A stretch of 33,847 bases of DNA from Bacillota bacterium (GTDB taxonomy: Bacteria; Bacillota; Limnochordia; JAAZLZ01), in NCBI GenBank assembly GCA_012521755.1, contig JAAYLV010000094.1, positions 1-33,847 on the forward strand. Direction: 5' to 3'. This document shows positions 3,326-32,641 of the stretch, piece by piece. Each line of letters starts with the position of its first letter. Positions within the stretch are counted from its first letter, which is position 1. Under the pieces are notes generated by a model. It did not search any database. It was given only the letters and a program-made list of their open reading frames with translations, and was not told the DNA's origin. Both the position numbers and the translations under genes were made by a program.

Positions 3326-3400
3326 GCGCCTATAGCTCAGCGGATAGAGCACCGGCCTCCGGAGCCGGGAGCGCAGGTTCGATTCCTGCTAGGCGCACCA
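3326..3400 (+). tRNA. tRNA-Arg(CCG)
   Basis: The 75-base cloverleaf is complete. The acceptor stem GCGCCTA pairs with TAGGCGC over 7 bp. The D stem is GCTC/GAGC, the anticodon stem CCGGC/GCCGG carries the loop CTCCGGA with anticodon CCG, and the T stem GCAGG/CCTGC carries the loop TTCGATT. The 3' CCA is encoded at 3398-3400. The tRNA reads the CGG arginine codon. It is followed by a T-rich stretch (TTTTTATTTC) that may end the transcript. Confidence 0.97.
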
Positions 3401-4293: not shown

Positions 4294-4389
4294 TTGCGGC
4301 GGTTCCTTTTTTTAGGCGTGGGAAGGGTTTCGTCCCCCAATGTTGAAACAGACGAAAGGAAGTAACACGGGTTGGAAGGGGAAATTGGG

Positions 4390-5550
4390 ATGCGCATCGT
4401 GGTGGCCCCTGATTCCTTTAAGGGGAGTGCCAGTGCTTCAGAAGTTGCGGATGCCTTGGCCCGGGGCTTAAGCCGGGCCTTGCCAAATGGTGAGTTCATC
4501 AAGGTGCCCATGGCCGATGGGGGGGAGGGGACAGTCCACGCACTAGTTGCCGCCACGAATGGGCGATTGGCTGAGGAGGAGGTGTGTGGGCCCCTGGGAC
4601 GTAAAGTCCGGGCCTTCTACGGCATAACCGGCGACGGGACCACAGCCGTCATCGAAATGGCGGCTGCGTCGGGACTGACTCTGGTGCGGCGGGAAGAACG
4701 GGATCCCCGTCGGGCGACGAGCTTTGGCACCGGCGAGCTCATTCGCGCCGCTTTGGATCAAGGATGCAGGCGGTTCATCATCGGCATCGGAGGCAGCGCC
4801 ACTAATGATGGAGGAGCAGGGCTGATCCAGGCCCTCGGCGGGCGCCTGCTCGATAAGGAAGGGAAGGAGCTTCCCTTGGGTGGGGCTTACCTTGCCCACT
4901 TGGAGCGGATCGATTTGACGGCTCTCGATCCCAGATTGAAAGAGTCCCGCTTCCTCATTGCCTGTGACGTGGACAACCCCTTGTTGGGCGAACGAGGGGC
5001 GAGCGCCGTTTACGGTCCGCAAAAAGGCGCAACCCCCCAGATGGTCAAAGAGCTGGATAGGGCCCTGGCCCGGTATGCCGAGGTTATTAAACGCGATCTG
5101 GACAAGGACGTGGCCAATGTGCCCGGCAGCGGCGCGGCGGGGGGGTTGGGAGCTGGCCTGATGGCCTTTTTAGATGCCACCCTCCACCGGGGCGTCGATC
5201 TGGTCATTGAAGCTGTGGGCCTAGCCGATAAGGTGAAGTCCGCGGACCTGGTCATCACCGGCGAAGGGTCGGTGGACGGACAGACTGTCTATGGCAAGAC
5301 GCCCGTTGGCGTTGCCCGGGTGGCCAAGAGTTTCAATAAACCGGTGGTAGCTGTGGCCGGCACCATAGGGGCCGGTGCGGAGGCGGTCTATGGGCACGGA
5401 GTTGACGTGGTCGTGGGGATTTTGGAGGGGCCGACCTCTCTGGACACGGCCATGGCCAGGGCAGTCTACTATCTGGAGACGACGGGGGAGCGGCTTGGTC
5501 GTTTACTGAAGGTTGGCGCAGGTCTTGGCTGCGCGCTACCCAGGGGTTAA
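4390..5550 (+). CDS. glxK: glycerate 2-kinase, GlxK/GarK type
   Basis: The protein has 386 residues, the family length, and opens with MRIVVAPDSFKGSASASEVA, the hallmark of the class I glycerate kinase family that phosphorylates D-glycerate with ATP to 2-phosphoglycerate. The motifs PMADGGEGT, GIGGSATNDGGAG (nucleotide-binding glycine-rich loop) and VITGEGSVDGQT near the C-terminus are all present. It is a cytosolic enzyme feeding glycerate into lower glycolysis. I choose ATG 4390 because GGAAGGGG (4375-4382) lies 7 bases upstream; the frame is open to a TTG at 4372 that lacks such a site. It precedes the nfnAB operon by 28 bases and may share its transcript, although a functional link to C1 metabolism is only inferred. 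The gene symbol denotes the family. Confidence 0.93.
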   Translation: MRIVVAPDSFKGSASASEVADALARGLSRALPNGEFIKVPMADGGEGTVHALVAATNGRLAEEEVCGPLGRKVRAFYGITGDGTTAVIEMAAASGLTLVRREERDPRRATSFGTGELIRAALDQGCRRFIIGIGGSATNDGGAGLIQALGGRLLDKEGKELPLGGAYLAHLERIDLTALDPRLKESRFLIACDVDNPLLGERGASAVYGPQKGATPQMVKELDRALARYAEVIKRDLDKDVANVPGSGAAGGLGAGLMAFLDATLHRGVDLVIEAVGLADKVKSADLVITGEGSVDGQTVYGKTPVGVARVAKSFNKPVVAVAGTIGAGAEAVYGHGVDVVVGILEGPTSLDTAMARAVYYLETTGERLGRLLKVGAGLGCALPRG

Positions 5551-5578
5551 TTGTAATTAGGCTCGAGGAGGGATGGGT

Positions 5579-7806
<2,228 letters not shown>

Positions 7807-7824: not shown

Positions 7825-8676
7825 ATGGCAGCAAAGATTATCGATGGGAAGCAGATTGCGGCCGAGATCAGGGCTGAACTGGCCAAGGAGATTGAGGGTC
7901 TGAAAAAAGAGGGTCTGAATCCTGGTTTGGCTGTGATCTTAGTGGGGGACGACCCTGCATCCAGGGTTTATGTGAACAACAAGAAAAAGGCTTGTGCGGA
8001 GGTCGGCATTTACTCCCGGGAATACGCGCTGCCCAAGGAGACTACCCAAGAGGAGCTGTTGAACCTGATTAGGGAGCTCAACCAGGACCCTGAGATCCAC
8101 GGCATCCTGGTTCAGCTGCCTTTGCCGGACCATTTGGATGAACGTCAGGTGCTGGAGACAATCAGCCCCGCCAAGGACGTGGACGGCTTCCACCCGGTCA
8201 ACGTCGGACGCTTGGTCACCGGCCAGCCTTGCCTGAAGCCCTGCACCCCCGCGGGGATCATCGAGCTCATTGACCGGACGGGGATCGAGCTCAAGGGCAA
8301 AGAAGCCGTCGTTGTCGGCAGGAGCAACATCGTCGGCAAACCCGTCGCCCTCCTTCTCCTCGCCCGCCATGCGACGGTGACGATCTGCCATTCCCGGACG
8401 GAGAGAATCGATGAGGTATGCCGGCGGGCCGATGTGCTGGTAGCGGCTGTGGGCCGGCCGGAAATGATTACAGGGGACTGGGTCAAGCCTGGCGCAGTTG
8501 TCATCGATGTGGGCATCAACCGGGTGGAAAAAGGATTGGTGGGGGATGTGGAGTTCGACTCCGCCAAAGAAAAGGCTGGCCATATTACACCGGTGCCCGG
8601 AGGCGTCGGACCGATGACCATCGCCATGCTCATGAAAAACACGGTGGAGGCAGCCCGCTCCTTGGCTAACCGCTAA
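7825..8676 (+). CDS. folD: methylenetetrahydrofolate dehydrogenase/cyclohydrolase
   Basis: The 283-residue protein is full length for FolD, which interconverts 5,10-methylene-, 5,10-methenyl- and 10-formyl-tetrahydrofolate using NADP(H). Visible family signatures are the catalytic YVNNKKKA segment with the Y-x3-K pair near residue 50, [24 protein letters not shown], the [14 protein letters not shown] nucleotide loop and [15 protein letters not shown]. The enzyme is cytosolic. It starts at ATG 7825, 18 bases after nfnB, with AGGAGGGGG further upstream than usual (about 13 bases). Adjacency of folD to nfnAB is also known in acetogens such as Moorella and suggests a supply of NADPH for the folate C1 branch. 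Confidence 0.96.
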
Positions 8677-8691
8677 TTAGGAGGGGTAGGA

Positions 8692-10542
8692 TTGAACCAT
8701 TGTCAAGTCAGCTTTGTCTTGCCCGAAGGCCGGGTCGTCGAGACCCGGTCTGCTTCGGGCATCACCATCCTCGAGGCTGCCCGGGCCGGTGGACTGGAGA
8801 TCCAGGCCACCTGCGCGGGCCGGGGGCGCTGCGGCCACTGCCGGGTCCAGGTTGAAGGAAAGCTTGCCCCGCCATCGCCAGTGGAGCAGCGGATCTTAAC
8901 GCCCGGGGAGAGGGCCCGGGGGATCCGCTTGGCCTGCCAGGCGCGACTTGAAGGGGACCTGAAGGTAATCCTGCCTAAAGTTGCGGCAGGGCCAGCGAAG
9001 ATCCTCACGGCCGGCACCGCCGCGGCGGTGCCGGTTGATTCTGGCTTCACAAAAAAGGTAGTCATCCTCGATCCGGCCACCCTCGAAGATGTGCGGGGCG
9101 ATTATGAGCGGCTCCGGGCGAAAGTGGAGATGTCCCAGCCGCCCCTTGCCATCTTGCGGCAGCTGGCCGCGGCTTTCCGTCAGGGTGAGGGGAAGGTGAC
9201 GGTGGCCTCTTTCAAGGACCAGGTCCTAAGCGTCGAACCGGGGGATGTCAGCGGGGAGTTATACGGGATGGCCTTCGATATTGGGACCACCACCGTTGTC
9301 GGCAGTCTGCTGGATCTTCGGACCGGCCGGGAGCTTGCCGTTTCCGCTGCAAGAAACGGCCAGGCCGTCCACGGGGCCGATGTCATCGCCCGCATCCAGT
9401 TTGCCCAGACGGTGCCGAAGGGCCTCCAAGAGATGCAAAAGAAGGTCATCCAGACCCTAAACACCATCATCGCGGACCTGCTGCAAGAGGCCAACGTCAA
9501 GCCCGAGTCAGTCTATGGTCTGTCGGTGGTCGGCAATACATGTATGCAGCATCTGCTCCTGGCCATCGACCCAAGTCCCCTGGGAACATCGCCCTATGTA
9601 CCCGTCTTCCAGTCGCCCCTGGTGGTAGAGGCGGGCGAGCTGGGTCTGCAGGTGAATCCCCAGGCTAAGGTCCTTGTCCTGCCTAATATTGCCGGGTTCG
9701 TCGGGGCCGATACTGTCGCGGTCATTATGGCCGCAGGACTAGACCAAGTCAAAGAGCCTGTGGTGGCCGTTGACATCGGCACCAATGGGGAGATAGTCGT
9801 GGCCCGGGATGGACAGCTTTGGGCCTGTTCCACCGCCGCGGGGCCGGCCTTTGAAGGGGCCCAGATCACTTGCGGCATGGGGGGAACGGCAGGCGCCATC
9901 GAAGGGGCAGACGTGATCGATGGCGAGCTAAAGCTGCAGGTCATCGATGGGGAGCCGGCGAGGGGCATCTGTGGGTCGGGACTCATTGACCTGATTGCCG
10001 TGCTCCTTGAGGCGGGAATCATTGACGAAACAGGCAGGATGCTGTCTCCCGATGAGCTGCCTGACGAAGTGCCCGCCGATTTGCGGCGGCGGGTCGTAGC
10101 CGGGGAGCGGGGCGTGGAGTTCATCCTGACCGAGGACGGAGAAAACCCGGTGGTCCTCACCCAAGGGGACGTACGGGAGCTGCAGCTGGCCAAGGGGGCC
10201 ATCTACGCAGGGATCAAGATCCTGATGAATGAGGCGGGGCTTGCTCCCCAGGATCTTAGTCAGGTAATACTTGCCGGCGCCTTCGGGAACTACGTCCGCA
10301 AGGAAAGCGCCATCGCGATCGGCTTATTGCCCATCGCCGAAAAGGACAAGATAGTCTCGGTGGGTAATGCCGCCCGGATGGGGGCCAGGATGGCGCTGTT
10401 GTCCCAGGAGGTGCGGGACCGGGCCCTGCGCGCTGCGGCCGCGGCCCAGTATGTTGAGCTTTCCGGGCGTCTTGACTTCCAGATGGAGTTTGCCGACGCC
10501 ATGCTCTTTCCCCGTCCCGGCGGGCATTTGGACAAAATATGA
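8692..10542 (+). CDS. RACo-like ATP-dependent reductive activator of corrinoid protein
   Basis: The 616-residue protein joins an N-terminal plant-type [2Fe-2S] ferredoxin domain, with cysteines C41, C47, C50 and C82 (C-x5-C-x2-C-x31-C), to a DUF4445/ASKHA-type ATPase. The ATPase shows DIGTTT at 196-201, a second DIGTNGE motif and the GICGSGLIDL segment. RACo proteins use ATP to push an electron uphill onto inactive Co(II) corrinoid and return it to Co(I). The start is TTG 8692 with AGGAGGGG at 8679-8686. It is 15 bases downstream of folD and followed by a corrinoid methyltransferase and corrinoid protein, which are its probable clients. I cannot tell from sequence whether it belongs to the CoFeSP activators or the RamA-like activators of methyltransferase systems; the 2Fe-2S domain favours RACo. 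Confidence 0.88.
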   Translation: MNHCQVSFVLPEGRVVETRSASGITILEAARAGGLEIQATCAGRGRCGHCRVQVEGKLAPPSPVEQRILTPGERARGIRLACQARLEGDLKVILPKVAAGPAKILTAGTAAAVPVDSGFTKKVVILDPATLEDVRGDYERLRAKVEMSQPPLAILRQLAAAFRQGEGKVTVASFKDQVLSVEPGDVSGELYGMAFDIGTTTVVGSLLDLRTGRELAVSAARNGQAVHGADVIARIQFAQTVPKGLQEMQKKVIQTLNTIIADLLQEANVKPESVYGLSVVGNTCMQHLLLAIDPSPLGTSPYVPVFQSPLVVEAGELGLQVNPQAKVLVLPNIAGFVGADTVAVIMAAGLDQVKEPVVAVDIGTNGEIVVARDGQLWACSTAAGPAFEGAQITCGMGGTAGAIEGADVIDGELKLQVIDGEPARGICGSGLIDLIAVLLEAGIIDETGRMLSPDELPDEVPADLRRRVVAGERGVEFILTEDGENPVVLTQGDVRELQLAKGAIYAGIKILMNEAGLAPQDLSQVILAGAFGNYVRKESAIAIGLLPIAEKDKIVSVGNAARMGARMALLSQEVRDRALRAAAAAQYVELSGRLDFQMEFADAMLFPRPGGHLDKI

Positions 10543-10684
10543 CCGGCTTAGAGCAATATTATACCGGAATTAGCAAAAACGTACCGAGGGATAAGGGAGC
10601 AAGCGTCAAAGTTATGCCGTAATGGAGAATTAAGCCTGGGGTGCGGTTTTGTCCAATTCCGGCCCAACCCCGGAGGAGGTAACT

Positions 10685-11482
10685 ATGGTAATCATTGGCG
10701 AATTAATCAACACTAGCCGCAAGAAGATCGGTGAAGCGGTAGAGGCCGGCGATGTTGCCTACTTGCAGCAAGTAGCAAAGGATCAAGTGGAAGCAGGCGC
10801 CCATTACCTCGATGTCAACTGCGGGACCATGATCGGCAAAGAGCCGGAGACCTTAGAATGGCTGGTCAAGCTGGTCCAAGAAGTGGTGGATGTTCCCCTG
10901 TGCCTCGACAGCCCGGATCCGGCGGCCCTGGAGCGGGCTTTGGGCGCCCATAAGGGAACGGCGATGATCAACTCCATCAGTCTGGAGAAGGAGCGCTATG
11001 ATGCCATCCTGCCCCTTCTCAAGGAGACTGACTGCTCCGTAGTGGCGCTCTGCATGGATGATAAAGGGATGCCGGAGACTGTGGAGCAGGGTCTGGAGTA
11101 TGCCAGCCGATTGGTTGACAGCCTGGGCGCAGAGGGCATCGATCCAGACCGGATTTACCTGGACCCCTTGGTTCGTTCGGTGGGCACCGGCTCCCATTAC
11201 GGCCGCATGTTCATTGACACAGTCAGCGCGATCAAGGAAAAATACCCCACGGTGCACATCACCTGCGGACTTAGCAACATTTCCTTCGGACTTCCTAACC
11301 GCAGGCTCCTCAATCGAACCTTCCTGGCCATGGCCATGGCCGCGGGGATGGACAGCGCCATCATGGATCCATTAGACAAGGTAATTATGGCCCACTTGTA
11401 CGCTGCCCGTGCTGTGTTGGGCCAAGATGATTTTTGTGCAGAATATATCACTGCACAAAGAGAGGGCAAGCTGGAAGTGTAA
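10685..11482 (+). CDS. methyltetrahydrofolate:corrinoid protein methyltransferase (AcsE/MtrH/MtgA-like)
   Basis: The 265-residue pterin-binding (dihydropteroate synthase-like) TIM-barrel protein opens MVIIGELINTSRKKIGEAVE and contains HYLDVNCGT, LCLDSPDP, GTAMINSIS, YLDPLV and CGLSNISFGLPNRRLLNRTF, matching AcsE and MtgA. Such enzymes transfer the methyl group between N5-methyl-THF and the cobalt of a corrinoid protein. ATG 10685 has GGAGGAGGT (10672-10680) directly upstream; an in-frame TTG at 10649 lacks a site. It lies between the RACo-like gene and the corrinoid protein gene. The partner resembles MtaC/MttC rather than the CoFeSP subunits of the Wood-Ljungdahl pathway, so an MtgA- or MtvA-like role is more likely than true AcsE. 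The in vivo direction of transfer is unknown. Confidence 0.88.
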   Translation: MVIIGELINTSRKKIGEAVEAGDVAYLQQVAKDQVEAGAHYLDVNCGTMIGKEPETLEWLVKLVQEVVDVPLCLDSPDPAALERALGAHKGTAMINSISLEKERYDAILPLLKETDCSVVALCMDDKGMPETVEQGLEYASRLVDSLGAEGIDPDRIYLDPLVRSVGTGSHYGRMFIDTVSAIKEKYPTVHITCGLSNISFGLPNRRLLNRTFLAMAMAAGMDSAIMDPLDKVIMAHLYAARAVLGQDDFCAEYITAQREGKLEV

Positions 11483-11513
11483 CACAATAAACACAGAGGA
11501 GGTCTAGCTGTAC

Positions 11514-12152
11514 ATGGCGGATTTCACCAAGATTAGCGAAGCTTTGATTAAGGGCGATGCCAAGACGGTTAAGGAACTGACGGAACAAGCAGTGGCCGAA
11601 GGTATTGCTCCGGGCGAGATTATCCAGCAAGGGCTCATCGCCGGCATGTCCGTCATCGCCGAGCGCTTCAAGAAGAACGAGATCTACGTTCCCGAGGTAC
11701 TTATTGCCGCCCGGGCGATGCACGCTGGCTTGGGCGTACTCAAGCCCCTGCTGACCGAGAGCGAGACGGAGGCTGCCGAGGTATTCCTCATCGGCACCGT
11801 TAAGGGCGACCTGCATGACATCGGCAAGAACCTGGTGGCCATGATGATGGAAGGCGCCGGCTTCCGGGTTGTGGACCTGGGCGTCGATGTACCTCCGGAG
11901 AAGTTCGTTGAGGCCATCAGAGAGCATAAGCCAAGCATCGTCGGACTGTCTGCTTTGCTCACCACCACCATGGTGGCCATGAAGGATACCCTCGAGGCCA
12001 TCAAGGCATCCGAGTTCAAGGACAAGGTGAAGGTTATGGTCGGCGGCGCCCCCGTCACCCAGAACTATGCGGACGAGATCGGTGCGGACGGCTACGCTCC
12101 CGATGCCAGCACCGCGGTCGACGTGGCCAAGAAGCTGATCGGAGCAGCGTAA
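11514..12152 (+). CDS. corrinoid (cobalamin-binding) methyl carrier protein, MtaC/MttC type
   Basis: The 212-residue protein has an N-terminal helical cap (about residues 1-88) and a C-terminal B12-binding Rossmann domain. The base-off/His-on motif D-x-H-x2-G is D99, H101, G104 in GDLHDIGKNLV, with the supporting SALL segment (146-149) and GGAP (177-180). It would carry a methyl group on cobalt between two methyltransferases. A GAGGAGGT site precedes ATG 11514, and a strong intrinsic terminator follows at 12171-12202, making it the last gene of the nfnA-folD-RACo run. The upstream gene is the THF-side methyltransferase. No MttB-, MtaB- or MtmB-like substrate-side methyltransferase is present in the window. 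Confidence 0.92.
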   Translation: MADFTKISEALIKGDAKTVKELTEQAVAEGIAPGEIIQQGLIAGMSVIAERFKKNEIYVPEVLIAARAMHAGLGVLKPLLTESETEAAEVFLIGTVKGDLHDIGKNLVAMMMEGAGFRVVDLGVDVPPEKFVEAIREHKPSIVGLSALLTTTMVAMKDTLEAIKASEFKDKVKVMVGGAPVTQNYADEIGADGYAPDASTAVDVAKKLIGAA

Positions 12153-12170
12153 TCGTATAATTGCGCAACC

Positions 12171-12202
12171 GGGGAGGAAGCTGCGGCGTTCCTCCCCTTT
12201 TT
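12171..12202 (+). terminator. rho-independent terminator after the corrinoid protein gene
   Basis: GGGGAGGAA (12171-12179) pairs perfectly with TTCCTCCCC (12189-12197) across a 9-base loop and is followed directly by five T (12198-12202). It begins 18 bases after the corrinoid protein stop codon and marks the end of the C1/corrinoid operon. Confidence 0.93.
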
Positions 12203-12764
12203 CTGTCCTGCAAGGACTTCATTCCTTCCAGGTCGAATACTTGGCAAAACCAAAAAGAAGACAAATCGGCCAGGCGCCAGATCTTCGGCCCTATCCTGGA
12301 GGATTGCTTGGGGCCTTGCCAAAAGTCTGCCTCTGCCCGACAATTGCCTTGTTGACCATGGCTCGCCAACGGTTCCTGCGGCCGGGCCTTTTTTGCATCG
12401 GTGGCGGACTTATTGGCGCCATCCTGAAAGCTTGCTCTTTAGTGGGCCCTTGCCGGCGGCGGTGGAGAAACACCGGTTCAGTAGGCCCCGGGACCACCGC
12501 TTATTATCCATCGTGTTGCCAAAGGGGCTAGAAATGGCTAATATCAAGGTGCACGGCCCTCGCCTAGGGAATTTCGGGAAGAACGCTGCTTTCTGGCCAG
12601 AGGTCCTGAGGGCAAGGGCCCCTTGCAGATGGAACAATTGCCTGCTGGGCAGGCTATAGACGCGATGGAAGGGCCTAGGGTCATTGTAGCGGGGAGACCC
12701 TGGCGGGGGCTGGCCGTTGGCCTGGAAAGGCCAACCTTAGGTGATGTGGGGAGGGATAAGAGTA
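12203..12764. other. long non-coding gap between two operons
   Basis: No convincing protein gene is seen in about 560 bases. Short frames exist (for example a 41-codon ATG frame at 12534-12659 behind AAAGGGG), but their peptides look random. The stretch is rich in short inverted repeats, most clearly the GNRA-capped hairpin at 12716-12735. I checked by eye for cobalamin, T-box, SAM, THF and c-di-GMP riboswitch signatures and for SRP, RNase P and tmRNA cores, and did not recognise any. Confidence 0.5.
12716..12735 (+). other. 8-bp hairpin with GGAA tetraloop upstream of the acyl-CoA dehydrogenase
   Basis: GTTGGCCT (12716-12723) pairs perfectly with AGGCCAAC (12728-12735) around the GNRA-type loop GGAA (12724-12727). 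It ends about 14 bases before the ribosome binding site of the acyl-CoA dehydrogenase, so it would lie in the 5' leader of that transcript. No T run follows it, so it is not a terminator. Confidence 0.6.
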
Positions 12765-13922
12765 TTGAACTACTTTCTCAGTGAAGAACAGCAAATGATT
12801 AAGGAGCTGGCGGCCCAGATCGCCAGGGAGAAAGTCCGTCCCGCAGCTGCAGAGTTGGATGAGCGGGAGGAGTTCCCTCGGGAGATCCTCAAGGTCCTGG
12901 CCCAGTCGGATCTTTTCGGGGTGTGGATACCGGAGGAATACGGGGGCCTAGGAGGGGGAATCTTTGAGCAGTGCCTGGTGGTGGAGGAGCTGAGCAAGGC
13001 CTGCGGCGGCGTAGCTGTGAGCTATGCGGCCAGCGCCCTCGGTTCGGTCCCCATCTTGCTCTTTGGCAATGAGGAGCAAAAACAGACATACCTGCCCCGG
13101 GTCGCTTCCGGGGAGCTGCTTGCGGCCTTTGCCTTGACGGAATCGGAGGCCGGCAGCGATGCAGGGGGCCTGCGGACCACCGCTCGCCTTGAGGGCGATG
13201 TTTACATATTAAACGGCGTCAAACAGTGGATCACCAACGGGGGCGAAGCCGATCTCTACACCGTCTTCGCCGTCACCGATGAGAGCAAAGGAATCAGGGG
13301 AACAAGCGCCTTCATCGTGGAGAAGGATACGCCGGGACTGAGTTTTGGGCCGAAGGAGCGAAAATTGGGGATCCGCTCCTCCGCCACCACGGAAGTCATT
13401 CTCCAGGACTGCCCCGTCCCGCGGGAAAACCTATTGGGCAGGCCGGGACAAGGCTTTTTGGTGGCCATGGCCACCCTGGATCGGACAAGGCCCGGCATTG
13501 GCGCCCAGGCGGTGGGCATCGGGACCGGGGCATTGGAAGCGGCCCTCCAGTTTGCCCGGGAGCGGCGTCAGTTCGGCCAGCCCGTCGCCTCCTTCCAGGC
13601 CATCCAGCATAAACTGGCCGACATGGCCACCCGCCTAGAAGCGGCTCGGGCGCTAGTCTATGCTGTTGCCCGCATGATCGATGCTGGCGAGAAGGACATC
13701 GCCATGGCGGCGGCGATGGCTAAGACCTTCGCCTCGGATGTGGCTATGGAAGTTGCCGTAGAGGCTGTGCAGATCATGGGGGGCTATGGCTACATGCGGG
13801 ACTACCCGGTGGAGAAAATGATGCGGGATGCGAAGGTGACCCAGATCTATGAGGGCACCAACGAAATCCAACGGAATATCATCGCCCAAGAACTAATCAA
13901 GAGGGCGGCCAAGGGAAGGTGA
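12765..13922 (+). CDS. acyl-CoA dehydrogenase
   Basis: The 385-residue protein is full length and has all three acyl-CoA dehydrogenase domains. FAD- and substrate-contact segments [12 protein letters not shown] (131-142) and QWITNGG (164-170) are followed by the C-terminal catalytic region [10 protein letters not shown], with E363 in the position of the catalytic base of short/medium-chain enzymes. It would form a 2-enoyl-CoA and reduce ETF; the chain specificity cannot be read reliably. TTG 12765 is chosen as start because it gives the family N-terminus [13 protein letters not shown] and has GGAGG 10 bases upstream; the open frame extends to GTG 12741. It overlaps etfB by 4 bases, so the three genes encode an enzyme with its dedicated electron acceptor. 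Confidence 0.93.
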
Positions 13923-14731
13923 GGGCCTTGCGGATTATAGTCTGCATCAAACAAGTGCCCCACCCCGATGAGGCCAAGGTGGACCCCGCGACGGGACTCG
14001 TCATTCGGGAAGGGGTGCCCATGGTCCTCAATCCCAATGACTATTTTACCATCGAAGAGGCCCTGCGTCTGAAGGAGGCGATGGGCGGGGAGGTTGTGGC
14101 CATCACCATGGGTCCCCCCACCGCCGAAGCCGTCTTGCGGGAGGCCATCAGCCTGGGCGTCGATGACGGGGTGCTCCTTTGCCATCGGGCCTTTGCCGGA
14201 GCGGACACTCTGGCGACGGCTTATGCCTTAGCCCGGGGAATCGAGTCCTTGGGCGGCTATGACCTCATCCTGACCGGCAGCCGCTCGACTGACGGCGAGA
14301 CGGGCCAAGTCGGTCCCCAGATCGCGGAGCTCCTCGGGATTCCCCATCTGACCGAACTTATCCGTCCCATTGAAGTTGAGGGGGATCACCTCTTGGCCTG
14401 GCATCAAACGGACTACGGCCAGGAGCTGCTGCAAATGCCCTTGCCGGCTCTCCTCACCGTAGCCAAGGGGATGAATGAGCCCCGGCTGCCCTCCCTCAGG
14501 GGAAAGATGCGGGCCAAGAAGCAGACGATTCCCATCTGGGGGCCTCAGGAGATCAAGGCTGAACCGGATCGAATCGGACTTGCGGGCTCGCCCACCCGCA
14601 TGCTGGAAACAGCTCTCCCGGAGAGGAAGTCCGGCTCCAAGATGCTGGAGGGCAGCATGGCCCATCAGGTCGACGCCCTCCTTGATCACTTGGCGGATAT
14701 GCTGCCCGGAAAGGCAGGTGGCCGGCGATGA
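13919..14731 (+). CDS. etfB: electron transfer flavoprotein beta subunit
   Basis: The 270-residue protein begins with the EtfB pattern [18 protein letters not shown] and contains [18 protein letters not shown], the AMP/FAD-contact segment [21 protein letters not shown] and [20 protein letters not shown]. With EtfA it accepts electrons from the acyl-CoA dehydrogenase encoded immediately upstream. The start GTG (13919) overlaps the upstream TGA as GTGA, and its own stop overlaps the etfA ATG, so translation is probably coupled. A TTG at 13928 is an alternative start. Whether the second nucleotide site holds AMP or a bifurcating FAD cannot be decided by eye. Confidence 0.93.
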
Positions 14732-15723
14732 GGGAGGTATGGATCTACGCGGAGTCGGAAGGGGAAAGACTCCATCCAGTCGTGGGTGAACTCTTGGGGG
14801 AGGGGCGCCGTTTAGCCGAGCGTCTTGGTGGATCCCTGGGGGCCGTGCTGGCAAGTCCCCATGGTTCCTTGGCCGAGGAGCTGGCCTTGTTCGCGGATCG
14901 AGTCTATGTTGTTCAGGATCCCCGCCCCTATACCGATGAATGGCAAAGCCAGGCCCTCATCCGGTTGATCGAAGATCGGCGACCCGAAATCCTCCTCTTT
15001 GGGGGCACCCGCCGGGGCAAGTCCCTCGCCCCCAGGGTTGCGGCGCGGCTGGGGACGGGCTTGATCGCCGACTGCACATCCCTTAGGATCGATGAGGACG
15101 GACTGCTCCTGGCTGAGCTGCCCACCTTTGGGGGACGGTTGCTTACCACTATCGCCTGCCCAAGCCATCGGCCCCAGATGGCAACCCTTGCCCTCGGGGC
15201 CTTTGCCCCAGGTCCAAAGGGGGCAGGCGGCGAGATTATTGACTGTCCATGGGCGATTCCTGGGCCCGGGACCATGAAGGTCTTGGGGCAAGAACCTTTG
15301 CCCGTGGATTCACGTCCCTTGCGGGGGGCAGAGATCGTCATTGCCGGCGGGCGGGGGCTGGGCTCCCGCGCGAACTTCGCTCTTTTGGAGGAGGTTGCTC
15401 GCCTTTTGGGGGCGGCCGTTGGCGCCTCCCGGGGGGCCGTGGATGCAGGCTGGATGGACCCGGAAGGGCTCATCGGCCAGACGGGGGCCATCGTGCGGCC
15501 CCGCCTCTACATCGCTTGCGGCATCTCTGGCGCCACCCAGCATGTGGTGGGGATGCAAAGGGCCGAGGTGATCGTGGCCGTCAACAAAGACCCGAAAGCC
15601 CCCATCTTCGATCTGGCCACCTACGGCATCGTGGGGGATTGTCGGCAGTTTCTGCTTGAGCTGAAGGGGCGTTTAGCTCTGCCAGGCGCGGTGGATGAGA
15701 AGAATGAGGGACAGGACGATTAG
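14728..15723 (+). CDS. etfA: electron transfer flavoprotein alpha subunit
   Basis: The 331-residue protein shows the C-terminal FAD domain of EtfA: GGRGLGS, VGASRGAVDAGWM, IGQTGAIVRPRLYIACGISG, and the Q-H-x-x-G-M and VNKDPKAPIFDLATYGIVGD segments. The N-terminal domain ([10 protein letters not shown] to roughly residue 190) is the ETF alpha/beta fold. No N-terminal ferredoxin domain, present in some clostridial EtfA proteins, is attached. The ATGA overlap with etfB indicates co-translation. Its last 51 bases overlap the 3' end of the convergent membrane protein gene on the minus strand, an unusual arrangement with no space for a separate terminator. Confidence 0.94.
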   Translation: MREVWIYAESEGERLHPVVGELLGEGRRLAERLGGSLGAVLASPHGSLAEELALFADRVYVVQDPRPYTDEWQSQALIRLIEDRRPEILLFGGTRRGKSLAPRVAARLGTGLIADCTSLRIDEDGLLLAELPTFGGRLLTTIACPSHRPQMATLALGAFAPGPKGAGGEIIDCPWAIPGPGTMKVLGQEPLPVDSRPLRGAEIVIAGGRGLGSRANFALLEEVARLLGAAVGASRGAVDAGWMDPEGLIGQTGAIVRPRLYIACGISGATQHVVGMQRAEVIVAVNKDPKAPIFDLATYGIVGDCRQFLLELKGRLALPGAVDEKNEGQDD

Positions 15724-16447: not shown

Positions 16448-16530
16448 GGATATCCTCCTTCGTCTTGTAGTATATCCTAATTCTGTCCTGCATCGCTGGT
16501 TATTCTTGGCAGTCGTTGGGAGGGGAAAGT

Positions 16531-17811
16531 GTGTTGGAGGGCGGTCCCAAGCTGGACTTAGTCGTTGACAACGTCAGTTTCGCCTATGCGTCCCGTTCTA
16601 TCCTGGAGAACATTTCCTTCCATATCCAGGGAGGGGACTTTGTGGGGATCATCGGCCCCAACGGGTCGGGCAAGTCGACCCTGCTGAAGAATATGAGCCG
16701 GGTCCTGGTCCCCCAAGGGGGAGCCATCTATTTGGGCAGGGAGGACCTGGAGAAGATGCCTAGGAGCCAGCTGGCCCGAAAAGTGGCCGTCGTTCCCCAG
16801 GAAACGATGGTCAATTTCGCCTTCACCGTTGAGGAAGTTGTCCTCATGGGCCGGACGCCCCATCTGGGTCGATTTCAATGGGAAGGTCCGGAAGATCGGC
16901 AAGTCGCCAGGAAGGCCATGGAAGCAACGGGGATCCTGCCTTTGGCCGACCGGCCCATCACTACTTTGAGCGGCGGGGAGCGGCAGCGGGCCATCATCGC
17001 CCAGGCCCTGGCCCAACAGCCGCGGGTCCTCCTCTTGGATGAGCCGACGAGCCACTTGGACATCAACCATCAGGTGGAGATTTTTGAGCTCCTCCGGGCT
17101 CTCAGCCAAAAGGAGCAGGTAACAGTCATCGCCGTCCTCCACGATCTCAACTTGGCCGCCCAGTATTGTGACTACCTGATTCTGCTCAGCGAAGGCCGGG
17201 TCTTTGCCCTGGGCAGCCCGGCCAGGGTCCTCACTCCGGAAAACGTGGCGGCCGTTTACGGCACGGAGGTGCTTGTTGATCTTAATCCGGCCACCAACCG
17301 TCCCTGGGTGCTGATTAAACCTCGGCGGGAGCCTGTAGCCATGGAGCTCAAGATTCATGTCATCGGCGGTGGAGGGACCGTCGGGCAACTCTTGGAAGAG
17401 CTGTACCGCAGCGGCCTCCATCCCTCAATTGGGGTCATCAACATCGGGGACAGCGACTGGCAGACGGCCCAAACCCTGGGGATGACCTGCATCGAGGAGA
17501 AGCCCTTCAGTCACATCGGTCCTGAGGCCCACCGGCAGAATTTGGCCATGATCGAAGGGGCCGATCTGGTGATCTTGGGTCCTGTCCCTTGGGGTCCGGG
17601 GAATCTGTTGAACCTGGCTGCAGTCGAGGAGGCCCTGCGGCTGGGCAAAGAAGTGATCGTCCTTGGTGTCGACGGCATCCGCGGGCGGGATTTCACCGAC
17701 AATGAAGCATGGCGACGTTTAGAGGAAGTCATCCGGGGGGGAGCGGTCCCCGTCGCCAGTATCGATGACGTCCTCGACTACTTGCGGAAAAGAGGTCAGG
17801 GAGAGAGTTGA
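16531..17811 (+). CDS. FecE/BtuD-type ABC transporter ATPase with extra C-terminal domain
   Basis: Residues 1 to about 255 form a complete ABC ATPase of the iron-siderophore/heme/vitamin B12 type: Walker A GPNGSGKST, Q loop VPQE, signature LSGGERQR, Walker B VLLLDEPTSHLD and the H-loop histidine in VLHDLN. The remaining 160 or so residues begin ELKIHVIGGGGTVGQLLEEL and have the look of a nucleotide-type Rossmann fold, with a GADLVILGPVPWGPGN stretch. I cannot assign this part. GTG 16531 is preferred (GGAGG 7 bases upstream) over TTG 16516. No permease or binding protein gene is nearby, so it is an orphan ATPase. Its stop overlaps the start of cobO, suggesting a role in corrinoid uptake or salvage. 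Confidence 0.85.
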   Translation: MLEGGPKLDLVVDNVSFAYASRSILENISFHIQGGDFVGIIGPNGSGKSTLLKNMSRVLVPQGGAIYLGREDLEKMPRSQLARKVAVVPQETMVNFAFTVEEVVLMGRTPHLGRFQWEGPEDRQVARKAMEATGILPLADRPITTLSGGERQRAIIAQALAQQPRVLLLDEPTSHLDINHQVEIFELLRALSQKEQVTVIAVLHDLNLAAQYCDYLILLSEGRVFALGSPARVLTPENVAAVYGTEVLVDLNPATNRPWVLIKPRREPVAMELKIHVIGGGGTVGQLLEELYRSGLHPSIGVINIGDSDWQTAQTLGMTCIEEKPFSHIGPEAHRQNLAMIEGADLVILGPVPWGPGNLLNLAAVEEALRLGKEVIVLGVDGIRGRDFTDNEAWRRLEEVIRGGAVPVASIDDVLDYLRKRGQGES

Positions 17812-18320
17812 AAGGATTAATCCAGGTGTATACAGGCAAGGGCAAAGGAAAGACTACCGCGGCTTTGGGACTGGCCTTGCGAGCCGTGGGTCAGGGCATG
17901 CAAGTTCGCATGATCCAGTTCGTCAAGAATGTTCAAGGTTCGGGGGAAGTGAAAATGGCCGGGCAATTGCCGGGCTTTTCCTTGGAGCAGTTTGGGACGG
18001 GGCGCTTCGTTAAAGGGGAGCCAGGGCCTGCCGACAGGGAGAAGGCTGCGGCCGGCTGGGAGGCCGCCCGGGAAAGTCTCCAGGGAGACTACGATCTGGT
18101 GATCCTCGATGAGATTAGCCATGTGCTGAACAAAGGGCTCCTCTCTGTGGAAGAGGTCCTTGGGGCGCTGCGGGAGCGAAGCCCCCAGGTTGAGGTGGTG
18201 CTGACGGGGAGGGATATGCCGCCGGCGATTATCGACGCGGCCGATCTAGTCACGGAAATGGTCCCGGTGAAACACCCGTACGATCAAGGGGTGCCTGCCC
18301 GGCGCGGGATCGAGTTTTGA
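17808..18320 (+). CDS. cobO: cob(I)alamin adenosyltransferase, CobO/CobA type
   Basis: The 170-residue P-loop protein opens GLIQVYTGKGKGKTTAALGL, with the GKGKGKTT nucleotide loop at residues 10-17. It also has VRMIQFVKN, the YDLVILDEISHVLNKGLL Walker-B-like region, VVLTGRDMPPAIIDAADLVTEM and the C-terminal MVPVKHPYDQGVPARRGIEF that are diagnostic of this ATP:corrinoid adenosyltransferase family. It attaches the 5'-deoxyadenosyl group to Co(I) corrinoids in cobalamin biosynthesis or salvage. The TTG start at 17808 overlaps the stop of the ABC gene. No other cobalamin synthesis genes are in the window, so a salvage role is possible. Confidence 0.95.
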   Translation: MKGLIQVYTGKGKGKTTAALGLALRAVGQGMQVRMIQFVKNVQGSGEVKMAGQLPGFSLEQFGTGRFVKGEPGPADREKAAAGWEAARESLQGDYDLVILDEISHVLNKGLLSVEEVLGALRERSPQVEVVLTGRDMPPAIIDAADLVTEMVPVKHPYDQGVPARRGIEF

Positions 18321-24489: not shown

Positions 24490-24785
24490 TGCTGCATCAC
24501 CTAGACGAGAAGTTCTTCGACCCGGGGCTATTTCCTCTGTGGAGGTTCCAATGATGCCCAGGTGAGGAAATGGGGGAGGAATTAGCGGCTGAAAGTCAAA
24601 TGTATAATGTAGGGGATTTTAATAAAAGAGACAGACATATTGATATGGTTTTCACAAGGTGGCAGCAGCGCCGTCATGGGACAGCGGTGCGGGCCACTGG
24701 CATTGAAGCTCCGGAGGAGGTGGTGCCTGCTAAGACTGAGGACCTGCAGGGTCTACTATATCACTGGGGAGGGAATCCAATAATA
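24490..24785 (+). promoter_or_regulatory. leader and probable promoter region of the dctPQM operon
   Basis: These 296 bases separate the divergent SGNH hydrolase and dctP. No gene is supported, although the dctP frame stays open to 24570. The part from 24590 to 24660 is clearly richer in A and T than its surroundings and holds a perfect TATAAT at 24603-24608. The -35 position (24580-24585, AATTAG) matches poorly. The remaining 175-base leader before ATG 24786 contains no riboswitch that I recognise. Confidence 0.4.
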
Positions 24786-25760
24786 ATGAAGAGACTTAGC
24801 CTTGTGTTGACTTTGGTTGTCTGTATTCTTGCGTTGACCATTGCACCGGTCTTGGGTGCACCTAAGATTATTCGCCTGAATCATACTCTAGCCCCTGATT
24901 CCCATTATCATAAGGGCCTCGAGTATTTTGCCGAACTAATCGCTGAGAAAACCAACGGTGAGATAGAGGTTCAGATCTTCCACAGCTCCCAGCTAGGCAG
25001 TGAGCGGGATGCCATCGAAGGCGTCATCCTTGGCACCTTGGAAGCGACCTTGGTTTCCACTGCTCCCTTGGCCAACTTCTCCAAGCAGTTCCTGGTGTTT
25101 GACCTGCCCTTCATCGTGAAAGACAGGGACACCGCCTACGCCGCCCTCGACGGCGAACTAGGGGAAATGATGGCCAAGTCCCTAGAGGATAAGGGCATCA
25201 AGACTCTGGCTTTCTGGGAGAACGGCTTCCGGATGCTGACCAACAGCCGGCGGCCCATCAACCAACCGGAGGACGTGGCGGGCCTTAAGATCCGACTCAT
25301 GGAAAACCCTGTGCATATGGCCACCTTCCGAGTCCTTGGAGCTGCTCCCGTGCCCATGCCCTTCGGTGAGCTCTTCACCGCCCTTCAGCAAAGGACGGTA
25401 GACGGCCAGGAGAACCCGCTGGTCATCATCCAGACCTCCAAATTCTACGAGGTCCAGAAGCATCTCGCGATGACGGGGCACTTCTATTCACCAGCGGCGC
25501 TTCTGATCGGTCAGAGGTTCTTTGACAGCTTGACCCCAGAGCAGCAGCGGGCAATCGAGGAGGCGGCCGTCGAAGCCCGCGACTGGGAGCGCCAGTATTG
25601 TATCGACCTAGAAGCCAGCCTTGTGGCAGAGCTTAAGGCAGCCGGCATGGAGGTAACCTATCCCGATCTGGATGCCTTCGAAAAAGCAGTGCAGCCGGTC
25701 TATGAGGAGTTCGAAGCGGAGATTGGCGCCGACGTCATCAGGGCGCTGCGGGGCTACTAG
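24786..25760 (+). CDS. dctP: TRAP transporter substrate-binding protein, DctP family
   Basis: The 324-residue protein has a signal peptide (MKRLSLVLTLVVCILALTIA, probable cleavage after VLGA) and the DctP fold. IIRLNHTLAPDSHYHKGLEYFAELIAEKTNGEIEVQIFHSSQLGSERD is the N-terminal lobe, and GLKIRLMENPVHMATFRVLGAAPVPMPFGELFTALQQRTVDGQENPL contains the conserved carboxylate-binding arginine (R in KIRLMEN). It binds an organic acid, most often a C4-dicarboxylate or sugar acid, outside the membrane for delivery to DctQM. ATG 24786 is chosen because the signal peptide begins there, although the frame opens at 24570. A GGGAGGG site is somewhat distant (about 13 bases). Confidence 0.93.
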   Translation: MKRLSLVLTLVVCILALTIAPVLGAPKIIRLNHTLAPDSHYHKGLEYFAELIAEKTNGEIEVQIFHSSQLGSERDAIEGVILGTLEATLVSTAPLANFSKQFLVFDLPFIVKDRDTAYAALDGELGEMMAKSLEDKGIKTLAFWENGFRMLTNSRRPINQPEDVAGLKIRLMENPVHMATFRVLGAAPVPMPFGELFTALQQRTVDGQENPLVIIQTSKFYEVQKHLAMTGHFYSPAALLIGQRFFDSLTPEQQRAIEEAAVEARDWERQYCIDLEASLVAELKAAGMEVTYPDLDAFEKAVQPVYEEFEAEIGADVIRALRGY

Positions 25761-25773
25761 TTGTCGCAGTTTG

Positions 25774-25802
25774 TGGGGTCTCGCCGGCAAGGCGAGACCC
25801 CA
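25774..25802 (+). other. 12-bp intercistronic stem-loop between dctP and dctQ
   Basis: TGGGGTCTCGCC (25774-25785) pairs perfectly with its complement at 25791-25802 around the 5-base loop GGCAA. No T run follows, and the ribosome binding site of dctQ comes 8-10 bases later. It probably stabilises the dctP 3' end or causes partial termination, giving more binding protein than permease. Confidence 0.7.
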
Positions 25803-25822
25803 TTGAATCGAGGAGGTGTCCC

Positions 25823-26317
25823 ATGCGGTTATTGGATCGCTTCGAAAACTATGTCATCATCATCCTTCTAAGCGCGATGAGCATCCTCGTTTTCGTAACC
25901 ACGATGGCGCGCTACGTGTTCTTCTATCCAATCCCCTGGGGGGAGGAGGCCGCCAGGTACATGATGGTGTGGCTGGCCTATATAGGCGCCTCGGCCGGAT
26001 TGAAGAGGGGCTCTCACCTCGGCGTTGAGGTCTTTGTCCAGTCATTGCCAAAGAAGTGGCACTGGGTCCTCGACGTCGTCAGATATCTGATCATCATCGT
26101 CTTCAACGTGCTGGTGGTCATTTTTGCTCTTCAGATACTTCGAAACCAAAAAGCAACGGGACAGATTTCACCCGCTCTTGAGATCCCCATCTATTATGCT
26201 TACGCCGCCGTTCCCTTTGGAATCGGGCTGATGACCATCAGGGCGGTGCAGAAACTAATTGCAGTCGTAGCCACTAGGAATCAAGACATAGTGGCGGCCA
26301 AGGGTCAGGAGGGGTAG
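25823..26317 (+). CDS. dctQ: TRAP transporter small permease, DctQ family
   Basis: The 164-residue protein has four predicted membrane helices (about residues 10-31, 44-62, 83-107 and 121-145). It carries the family features: R-Y-V-F between helices 1 and 2, IPWGEEAARYMMVWLAYIGA and the GSHLGVEVF loop. DctQ is the small membrane partner of DctM in sodium-coupled TRAP uptake. GAGGAGGTG precedes ATG 25823. dctM follows after 3 bases. Confidence 0.93.
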   Translation: MRLLDRFENYVIIILLSAMSILVFVTTMARYVFFYPIPWGEEAARYMMVWLAYIGASAGLKRGSHLGVEVFVQSLPKKWHWVLDVVRYLIIIVFNVLVVIFALQILRNQKATGQISPALEIPIYYAYAAVPFGIGLMTIRAVQKLIAVVATRNQDIVAAKGQEG

Positions 26318-26320
26318 AGG

Positions 26321-27601
26321 TTGGGAGTACTGCTATTTGGTTCATTCCTGATATTAATGCTGTTTAATATCCCCATCGCGGTGGCCTTAGGTTTGGCTTC
26401 GATGATCGCCCTGGTCTTCGGACCCATGGCCGTGCCGCCGCTGGTAGTCGTACAGCGCATGTTCACATCGGTGGATTCCTTTCCATTCATGGCCATTCCC
26501 TTCTTCATGCTGGCCGGCGGTCTGATGGAGGGAGGCGGCATCTCCAAGCGACTGGTAAACTTCGCCAAAACCCTCATTGGTTCTATGCCCGGGGGACTTG
26601 GCATCATCACCGTAGTCTCTTCCGCCTTCTTTGGCGCCATCTCCGGCTCCAACCCGGCGACAGTGGCCTCCATTGGCGGCATCATGATCCCTGCCATGCA
26701 TGAGGCCGGATACCCGAAGGACTATGCCGCGGCGGTTGCGGCTGCCGCCGGCACCTTGGGCGTCATTATTCCTCCAAGCATTCCGATGATCACCTATGGT
26801 GTAGTGTCTGGCTGCTCCATTGGTGATCTGTTCATTGCCGGTTTGCTGCCTGGCATTTGTATTGCCCTGCTTCTGTCCTTCAGCATCTGGACTAATGCCA
26901 AGAAGCTAGGGCTCAAGGGCGATCGCAACTACACCTTTCGCGAGATGATCGCAGCTGCGAAGGACGCTGCCTTTGCCTTGTTAATGCCTGTGCTCGTCTT
27001 GGGCGGCATCTATGGCGGCGTCTTTACACCCACGGAGGCGGCGGCGGTGGCCGTGATCTACGCCCTCATCATCGGTCTGTTTGTCTACCGGGAATTCACG
27101 TGGAAAGACTTGCCCCAGATCATCATCAACGCCGGGATAAGCACGTCAGTTGTGTTTTTTGTAATCGCCGCATCCTCTTCCTTTAGCTGGCTGATTACTG
27201 CCGGGCGCATTGCCGACTCTGTTACCAAGGCCATGATGGCTATTTCCAGCAACAGGTATGTGTTGATTTTCCTCATTAACATACTGCTTCTGTTCCTAGG
27301 AACGTTCCTCGAGACCCAGGCCATCATCCTCCTGGTTGCCCCGATCCTCATCCCCTTGGCAACCCGGATCGGATTGGATCCCTTGGCCCTTGGCATCATC
27401 ATGGTCGTCAACACATCGATTGGAATGATAACGCCGCCGATGGCTGTCAACCTTTTCGTAGCCTGTGGAATCGCGAATCTGAAAATCGAGGAGATAACGA
27501 AGCCAATTCTTCCCCTCCTCGCGGTCGAAGTTGCCTTCTGTTTGCTCATCTCCAACTTTCCGCAGCTTCTACTGTGGCTGCCGCGGTTGGTTCGTGGTTA
27601 A
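26321..27601 (+). CDS. dctM: TRAP transporter large permease, DctM family
   Basis: The 426-residue protein is a 12-helix ion-coupled transporter subunit. It shows PFFMLAGGLMEGGGISKRL, the ISGSNPATVASIGGIMIPAM substrate/Na+ site region, GTLGVIIPPSIPMITYG and the mirrored second half with FLETQAIILLVAPILIP and NTSIGMITPPMAVNLF. The start is TTG 26321, with AGGAGGGG at 26307-26314. Together with dctP and dctQ it forms one complete TRAP system. Confidence 0.95.
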   Translation: MGVLLFGSFLILMLFNIPIAVALGLASMIALVFGPMAVPPLVVVQRMFTSVDSFPFMAIPFFMLAGGLMEGGGISKRLVNFAKTLIGSMPGGLGIITVVSSAFFGAISGSNPATVASIGGIMIPAMHEAGYPKDYAAAVAAAAGTLGVIIPPSIPMITYGVVSGCSIGDLFIAGLLPGICIALLLSFSIWTNAKKLGLKGDRNYTFREMIAAAKDAAFALLMPVLVLGGIYGGVFTPTEAAAVAVIYALIIGLFVYREFTWKDLPQIIINAGISTSVVFFVIAASSSFSWLITAGRIADSVTKAMMAISSNRYVLIFLINILLLFLGTFLETQAIILLVAPILIPLATRIGLDPLALGIIMVVNTSIGMITPPMAVNLFVACGIANLKIEEITKPILPLLAVEVAFCLLISNFPQLLLWLPRLVRG

Positions 27602-30590: not shown

Positions 30591-30627
30591 AGGCCCAAGT
30601 CCAAGGTAAAGCCCAGGACTTGGGCCT
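30591..30627 (+). other. 12-bp intercistronic stem-loop before the TAXI-TRAP permease
   Basis: AGGCCCAAGTCC (30591-30602) pairs perfectly with GGACTTGGGCCT (30616-30627) across 13 bases. It begins 9 bases after the oxidoreductase stop and has no T run. Like the stem at 25774-25802 it may set the relative mRNA levels of neighbouring genes. Confidence 0.68.
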
Positions 30628-30661
30628 GATGCAACAAGCCGAAAATGAGGGGAGCTCCAAA

Positions 30662-32536: not shown

Positions 32537-32641
32537 TGGCCGATAATGGAAGGGGTGGTGGCTGGCACTAATGGCGTAATAGGAGCAGGTTACGGCAGCG
32601 GAGACAGTAAAGACTGCGTAGATAGAGAGGAGGCAACAAAG

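Follow-up and report, generated by a model that had tools for sequence, protein, structure and literature searches.

A single stand-alone corrinoid protein (CoP) probably acts as the methyl-carrying hub for many demethylases of the UroD superfamily, with an activator of the RACo type returning it to the active state and a methyltransferase (MeTr) handing its methyl group to folate; we put the probability of this reading at about 0.7. The three genes were found in the window (the whole stretch of 33,847 nucleotides that was analysed, contig C103 of genome G000), in a same-strand run that opens with glxK and is closed by a terminator:

4372..5550, + strand: glxK, glycerate kinase (NCBIfam TIGR00045, 515 bits)
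5573..6424, + strand: nfnA-like FAD/NAD-binding subunit (NCBIfam NF004862, 408 bits; conserved in 9 loci)
6400..7806, + strand: nfnB-like NADPH-dependent oxidoreductase, gltA/gltD-type (NCBIfam TIGR01316, 634 bits; conserved in 11 loci)
7825..8676, + strand: folD, methylene-THF dehydrogenase/cyclohydrolase (Pfam PF02882 and PF00763; conserved in 13 loci)
8692..10542, + strand: RACo-type ATP-dependent corrinoid protein reductive activator (Pfam PF14574, PF17651, PF17650 and PF00111; PDB 3zyy, 2e-94)
10685..11482, + strand: MeTr, methyl-THF:corrinoid protein methyltransferase (NCBIfam NF005719; PDB 4o0q, 3e-64, also 2yci and 1f6y)
11514..12152, + strand: CoP, stand-alone corrinoid protein, putative common methyl carrier (Pfam PF02607 and PF02310; PDB 1y80, 2e-67)
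12171..12202, + strand: intrinsic terminator, hairpin 12171-12197 followed by a U-run (RNA fold -21.3 kcal/mol, z = -3.0)

The original prediction had described a run of three genes starting at 8692. RACo, MeTr and CoP are real and were correctly named at the family level, but the run starts upstream, since glxK, nfnA, nfnB and folD (from 4372, 5573, 6400 and 7825) follow one another on one strand, separated by no more than 22 bases and with one 25-base overlap. The predicted terminator was confirmed by RNA folding, none of 200 shuffles being equally good; a simple consensus scan overlooked this hairpin, which only folding revealed. No riboswitch was found in the window with Rfam, the sole match being a tRNA. 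Neighbourhood comparison showed that the RACo-CoP-folD-nfnAB synteny is conserved across four families, and that one relative (G004) retains glxK, whereas family f6 has a sugar-phosphate-isomerase-like gene in its place. Two further genes outside the run concern corrinoid supply, the first of them probably; a related BtuD-like gene comes after the cluster in family f6:

16516..17811, + strand: corrinoid/heme-type ABC transporter ATPase with C-terminal extension (NCBIfam NF007082, 354 bits, under the cut-off of 537)
17808..18320, + strand: cobO/btuR, ATP:corrinoid adenosyltransferase (Pfam PF02572, 5e-63)

RACo displayed the domains Fer2, RACo_linker, Raco_middle and RACo_C_ter (E-values down to 2e-75). 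MeTr contains a Pterin_bind domain and passed NF005719 (369.7 bits, cut-off 259), its best solved relatives being 4o0q and 4o1e; its reading frame is open from TTG 10649, and the ATG at 10685, behind GGAGGAGG, is the better start. CoP carries both B12-binding domains and the cobalamin motif D-L-H-D-I-G (DxHxxG), with Moorella 1y80 as best solved relative. It had been called MttC-type: its nature as a corrinoid protein stands, whereas the assignment to MttC specifically does not, because it remained under the cut-offs of MtgC_2 (250.9 versus 370) and TIGR02370 (210.7 versus 215.3) and fell outside MttC/MtmC, as well as outside CobDH and MetH, in a tree whose deep support is weak. A PF02310 search of the genome returned no second free corrinoid protein, the only other match being a radical-SAM protein, and since the assembly is 93% complete one could be missing.

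The substrate side was searched with two models, PF06253 (MttB) and PF01208 (UroD). Neither model matched on the window contig, in agreement with the prediction that the window encodes no substrate-side methyltransferase. The further suggestion of a partner encoded elsewhere is well supported, although not by an enzyme of the MttB kind: PF06253 had no match anywhere in the genome, MttB being rejected as partner of CoP on this ground, and the candidates are instead about 20 UroD-superfamily genes spread across 15 contigs. A wholly undescribed methyl-transfer route, also envisaged originally, need not be invoked to account for this genome. The UroD superfamily includes MtaA, MtvB and OdmB. The zinc-ligand histidine of MtaA was present in 20/20 UroD open reading frames of the genome and absent from the HemE control, and MtaA was the PDB fold nearest to the structure model of one member. 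The full His-Cys-Cys set occurred in two of the 20, both off the window contig, and judged by metal-ligand type most of these enzymes look like O-type rather than S-type ones. TRAP and ABC transporters are among the neighbours of UroD genes. They have no carrier genes of their own, and the imbalance between 20 UroD reading frames and one free corrinoid protein favours a shared carrier.

In the proposed cycle, inactive Co(II)-CoP would be reduced by RACo to Co(I). Any of the roughly 20 UroD-superfamily methyltransferases would then demethylate its own substrate and methylate the single CoP, and MeTr would pass the methyl group from CoP to tetrahydrofolate. The first and third of these steps are based on family membership, whereas we infer the second from genome content, co-occurrence and gene order. 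Methyl-THF would finally enter one-carbon metabolism, for which FolD and the Nfn pair are encoded alongside and a complete CODH/ACS elsewhere.

Distribution across the class was in agreement with this reading. Among 73 genomes, 36 with CoP and 37 without, at least three UroD matches were found in 32/36 CoP genomes versus 1/37 of the others (Fisher 4e-15), a contrast chosen after the data had been seen and drawn from related genomes, so that the counts are not independent. The association persisted at the genus level (7e-6), and the direction was the same within three of four mixed genera. CoP and UroD genes shared one cluster in 11 genomes of four families, and in unrelated genomes relatives of MeTr have UroD, CoP and RACo genes as neighbours (L027, L029); together with the conserved synteny, these observations also favour the shared carrier. 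Counted against it are the kinship of the genomes, the UroD genes of family f1, which do not adjoin CoP, one genome (G061) that encodes CoP and MeTr but returned no UroD match, and the very divergent UroD members (H-L-H group), which may not be methyltransferases.

It is rather unlikely that just one or two UroD enzymes are the main partners of CoP and that most of the other paralogues have functions unrelated to corrinoids. Ligand sets differ strongly among the UroD subfamilies, pairwise identities are often 13-25%, and CoP is retained in two genomes having just one or two UroD genes (G010, G037), all of which would fit such a restriction; however, the number of UroD genes climbs with the presence of CoP, also within genera, and the ligand histidine is universal among the UroD reading frames of the genome studied.

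A split cobalamin-dependent methionine synthase can also be assembled from this gene content, with MeTr as folate module, CoP as B12 module, RACo in place of the activation domain and a PF02574 protein encoded on contig C98 as homocysteine module. The genome lacks both MetE and full-length MetH, and its single PF02574 protein, closest to the homocysteine domain of MetH and devoid of a B12 domain, is encoded beside MTAP- and MtnA-like genes. Stand-alone PF02574 proteins occurred in 18/36 CoP genomes and in 0/37 others (p 1.7e-7), and precedents exist in split MetH and in MtgC/MtgD/MtgE (PMC12478193). As the only role of the set this is nevertheless quite unlikely, and it was rejected as such: the homocysteine module is not retained across relatives, being absent from half of the CoP genomes, including 6/11 f6 genomes with the same operon, and both the numerical correlation and the adjacency of CoP and UroD would be left unexplained. 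As an additional role beside the many demethylases, methionine synthesis has slightly less than an even chance; CoP may then also act as methyl donor for the stand-alone homocysteine methyltransferase on contig C98, with methionine as product. MetE or core-MetE was rejected as methyl acceptor, PF01717 being absent from this genome, as it was from 18/21 genomes examined.

A single dedicated enzyme of the MtaB (PF12176), MtmB (PF05369), MtbB (PF09505) or MttB kind, missing from the assembly or unrecognised, is improbable. The incompleteness of the genome and a substrate-side search confined to the MttB and UroD models leave room for it, and some MeTr relatives outside the class adjoin MttB (L021, L025). 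Against this, MttB is absent from 3/3 genomes of the genus and from 69/73 of the class (four having it) while CoP is kept, and UroD genes are plentiful. Highly improbable is a function in completing the Wood-Ljungdahl pathway as methyl carriers for CODH/ACS, even though CODH/ACS is encoded in the genome and FolD in the run, because the acs cluster on contig C56 has its own AcsE, AcsC, AcsD, AcsV and CooC and the CoP-RACo-folD cluster is retained in f6 and f10 genomes without an AcsE-like match. No CoFeSP/acs gene was found in the run by Pfam, MeTr is only 36% identical to the AcsE of the same genome, and the idea that the set supplies an acs/CoFeSP cluster lacking its carriers was rejected, that cluster being complete. 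The absence of MttB and this completeness both favour the UroD enzymes as users of CoP.

Stand-alone MeTr was present in six CoP genomes and absent from 30/36, which indicates that it is not obligate in the partnership of CoP and UroD. One conserved His-Cys-Cys UroD (58-83% identity), adjoining CoP in at least 10 genomes, was found in 23/30 of the MeTr-less CoP genomes, in 0/6 MeTr carriers and in 0/37 CoP-less genomes. MtrH was rejected as a hidden folate enzyme of these relatives (0/73 class genomes). It is conceivable, if doubtful, that in most relatives CoP works without a known folate methyltransferase and that the His-Cys-Cys UroD replaces MeTr on the acceptor side. It may methylate folate or else a thiol, for example homocysteine, and the UroD family would then contain an acceptor-side enzyme of a novel type. 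The methyl acceptor where no folate methyltransferase exists was an open question in Kountz and Balskus (PMC10418091), and the alternation of the two enzymes makes it directly testable.

If CoP does serve many UroD enzymes, a lineage of uncultured bacteria from anaerobic digesters would draw methyl groups from many compounds via one B12 carrier. The UroD-family enzymes would be its specific front ends, and many 'uroporphyrinogen decarboxylase' annotations there would denote demethylases; about 20 enzymes and one carrier form a concrete set for substrate testing.

The hub design itself is already known for MttB enzymes, and the UroD arrangement proposed here would add a new variant to it. In Eubacterium limosum, MtqC/MtqA/RamQ serve quaternary amine metabolism and their sharing among substrate enzymes has been demonstrated (PMC8604678). 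As proposed for our window, several substrate enzymes encoded at other loci use a single corrinoid protein together with a single THF methyltransferase and a single activator, and the genes of MtqA and RamQ have methyl-THF oxidation genes around them, much as our run includes folD; the substrate enzymes are of the MttB family there and of the UroD family here, in a genome devoid of MttB, and sharing is here a proposal. The Odm, Vdm, Mtv, Mto and Cdm systems (PMC13222342) likewise combine a UroD-superfamily substrate enzyme, a corrinoid protein, a 4o1e-type methyl-THF methyltransferase and an activator. They usually encode one substrate enzyme with its own corrinoid protein, whereas about 20, encoded apart, would share one here, and CoP is not close to CobDH in the tree.

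Type 1 mlp gene clusters (Kountz and Balskus, PMC10418091) also unite UroD-family enzymes, a corrinoid protein and an activator, often without an H4folate methyltransferase, a situation also seen here in families f5, f13 and f14. They are recognised by Mlp2 and Mlp3 clustered with the corrinoid protein and the activator, and group two or three His-Cys-Cys Mlps; the window cluster has none and possesses MeTr, no UroD gene lies on its contig, and the His-Cys-Cys set is lacking in most of the UroD enzymes that the genome encodes. The acs cluster (AcsE, AcsCD, AcsV, CODH/ACS) resembles the set in that AcsE is homologous to MeTr and AcsV to RACo, and differs in being separate. Finally, MtgC/MtgD/MtgE of Ruegeria pomeroyi resemble the set in having a single corrinoid protein, a single pterin methyltransferase and a separately encoded homocysteine module; their substrate side is MttB-like (PF06253), and the dual use in demethylation and methionine synthesis demonstrated for them (PMC12478193) would have its counterpart here in UroD enzymes and the C98 protein.

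The activator RACo, the methyl-THF:corrinoid methyltransferase (MeTr) and the stand-alone corrinoid protein (CoP) formed one run ending in a strong hairpin with a U-run, so that the gene set and terminator of the original prediction proved real. The run reached upstream on the same strand through folD, nfnB, nfnA and glxK, with no intergenic gap above 22 bases, which ties methyl transfer to folate one-carbon chemistry. The window is an entire contig (C103) of G000, a draft genome of 1.96 Mb in 140 contigs, 93% complete; genomes of the same genus are Bacillota drafts from digesters. One of these (G002, contig C52; L064, about 8332-8994) carried a reverse-transcriptase-like ORF, by appearance of group II intron type, beside its acs cluster. 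An acyl-CoA dehydrogenase and EtfBA (window 12741-15723) lay directly past the terminator, a place beside CoP also kept in family f6. The window further held two TRAP-type transporter sets, judged by sequence appearance (DctPQM-like, 24570-27601; TAXI-like, 30620-33646), the second preceded by a GntR-like regulator and an FAD-dependent oxidoreductase, and a tRNA gene (3326-3397), its sole Rfam match.

Family searches of G000 recovered neither MttB nor MetE. Its acs/CoFeSP genes, checked for a cluster with missing carriers, formed a complete CODH/ACS cluster on contig C56 with its own AcsE, AcsC, AcsD and AcsV. One homocysteine methyltransferase (PF02574) was present; its 495-codon ORF contains no B12 domain. 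The UroD superfamily (PF01208), which includes MtvB, OdmB, VdmB, MtoB and CdmB (PMC13222342) and likewise MtaA, gave 21 matches in 20 ORFs; these, and not MttB, are the candidates for the partner suspected to be encoded elsewhere. The zinc-binding His of MtaA was kept in all 20 (Phe in a HemE-like control), and none fell in the HemE score range (at most 237 bits, vs 407-460 bits for likely HemE of other genomes). Ligand sets were His-Cys-Cys in two, His-Cys-His in five and His-Asp-Asn in four, the remainder being more divergent; the nearest PDB structures to a modelled His-Cys-His member (mean pLDDT 95) were MtaA, then HemE. His-Cys-Cys has been assigned to S-type members and replacement of Cys to O-type (Kountz and Balskus, PMC10418091), a rule by which most of the G000 enzymes would be O-type. 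Six of the genes were adjacent to, or one gene away from, TRAP or ABC transporter genes, which were present in 9 of 18 fetched UroD loci.

The closest relative of CoP was Moorella 1y80, and CoP fell below the cut-offs of the MtgC and pyl-corrinoid models. In a tree with weakly supported deep forks, it grouped with other CoPs of its class and outside MttC/MtmC, CobDH and MetH; the missed pyl-corrinoid cut-off and this placement both speak against the MttC type first proposed. Since the only other B12-binding match in G000 sits in an ORF that appears to encode a radical-SAM protein, the UroD enzymes, if they are corrinoid methyltransferases, have no known free carrier other than CoP.

Among 73 genomes of the class, 36 had CoP (E < 1e-50, plus G022, in which a contig end carries a 61-residue fragment) and 37 did not. 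At least three UroD matches were found in 32/36 vs 1/37 (Fisher 4e-15, on related genomes and for a contrast picked with the counts in view), and CoP was associated with UroD number across 42 genera (Mann-Whitney 7e-6). Contrasts within genera mostly agreed: 4, 6 and 12 UroD with CoP and 0, 0, 0, 0 and 2 without in g35, 3-6 vs 0 in g5 and 8 vs 1 in g11, with no difference in g39 (2 vs 2). CoP and a UroD gene shared a cluster in 11 genomes of four families. Outside the class, loci L027 and L029 combine a MeTr relative with UroD, CoP and RACo, and in L021 and L025 the MeTr relative has MttB-like genes as neighbours. In G064, an ORF of about 627 codons (L192:7431-9314) matched both UroD and corrinoid protein, a fusion of methyltransferase and carrier that is CmuA-like in layout.

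The system most likely works as a shared corrinoid hub (probability roughly 0.7), a known design that here has enzymes of the UroD family at its front end. CoP would be brought to Co(I) by RACo and methylated by one of many UroD enzymes, each from its own substrate; MeTr would then hand the methyl to THF, the product being used or balanced by the neighbouring FolD and Nfn pair and by CODH/ACS elsewhere. Judged from gene content, the window set is neither a partnerless carrier set nor in itself the undescribed route once considered, the hub design being known.

Families f6 and f10 carried an otherwise identical operon, nfnAB-folD-RACo-CoP (L096-L105), with MeTr found neither in it nor anywhere in those genomes by family search. 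The genomes holding these clusters gave no AcsE or MtrH match anywhere, and genus g6 had no PF02574 gene either. A sharply bounded His-Cys-Cys UroD family (58-83% internal identity, at most 26% to all other UroD compared) has orthologues in 23 genomes, including:
L198, 4705-5745: His-Cys-Cys UroD member
L184, 4602-5639: His-Cys-Cys UroD member
It occurred in 23/30 CoP genomes without stand-alone MeTr vs 0/6 with it (Fisher 9e-4), or 6/7 vs 0/4 by family (p 0.015), p-values that are a guide only because the tests were picked after the data were seen and the genomes are related. It was absent from genomes without CoP. Presence was confirmed on fetched sequence; absence was read from a match list reaching about 1e-24, in which any member would be listed. 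The enzyme may act on the acceptor side, replacing MeTr in genomes that lack it.

Stand-alone homocysteine methyltransferases were found in 18/36 CoP genomes vs 0/37 others, a count that excludes one broken gene and genes cut short by contig ends. The one on contig C98 of G000 (L054:1268-2755) neighbours endonuclease III, MTA phosphorylase-like and MtnA-like genes; in some relatives (G014, G018) the C-terminal half of this type resembles a degenerate pterin-binding barrel. By analogy with Ruegeria, where one carrier does both demethylation-side and methionine jobs (PMC12478193), methyl flow from CoP to methionine is a plausible second role beside the hub.

Among the papers found, none describes a hub with a UroD front end in this lineage. 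In Eubacterium limosum, three MttB-family enzymes share one carrier in the MtqC/MtqA/RamQ layout, with MtqA and RamQ located among methyl-THF oxidation genes (PMC8604678). This layout is the same as that modelled for the window operon, but the substrate enzymes are of the MttB family there and of the UroD superfamily here.
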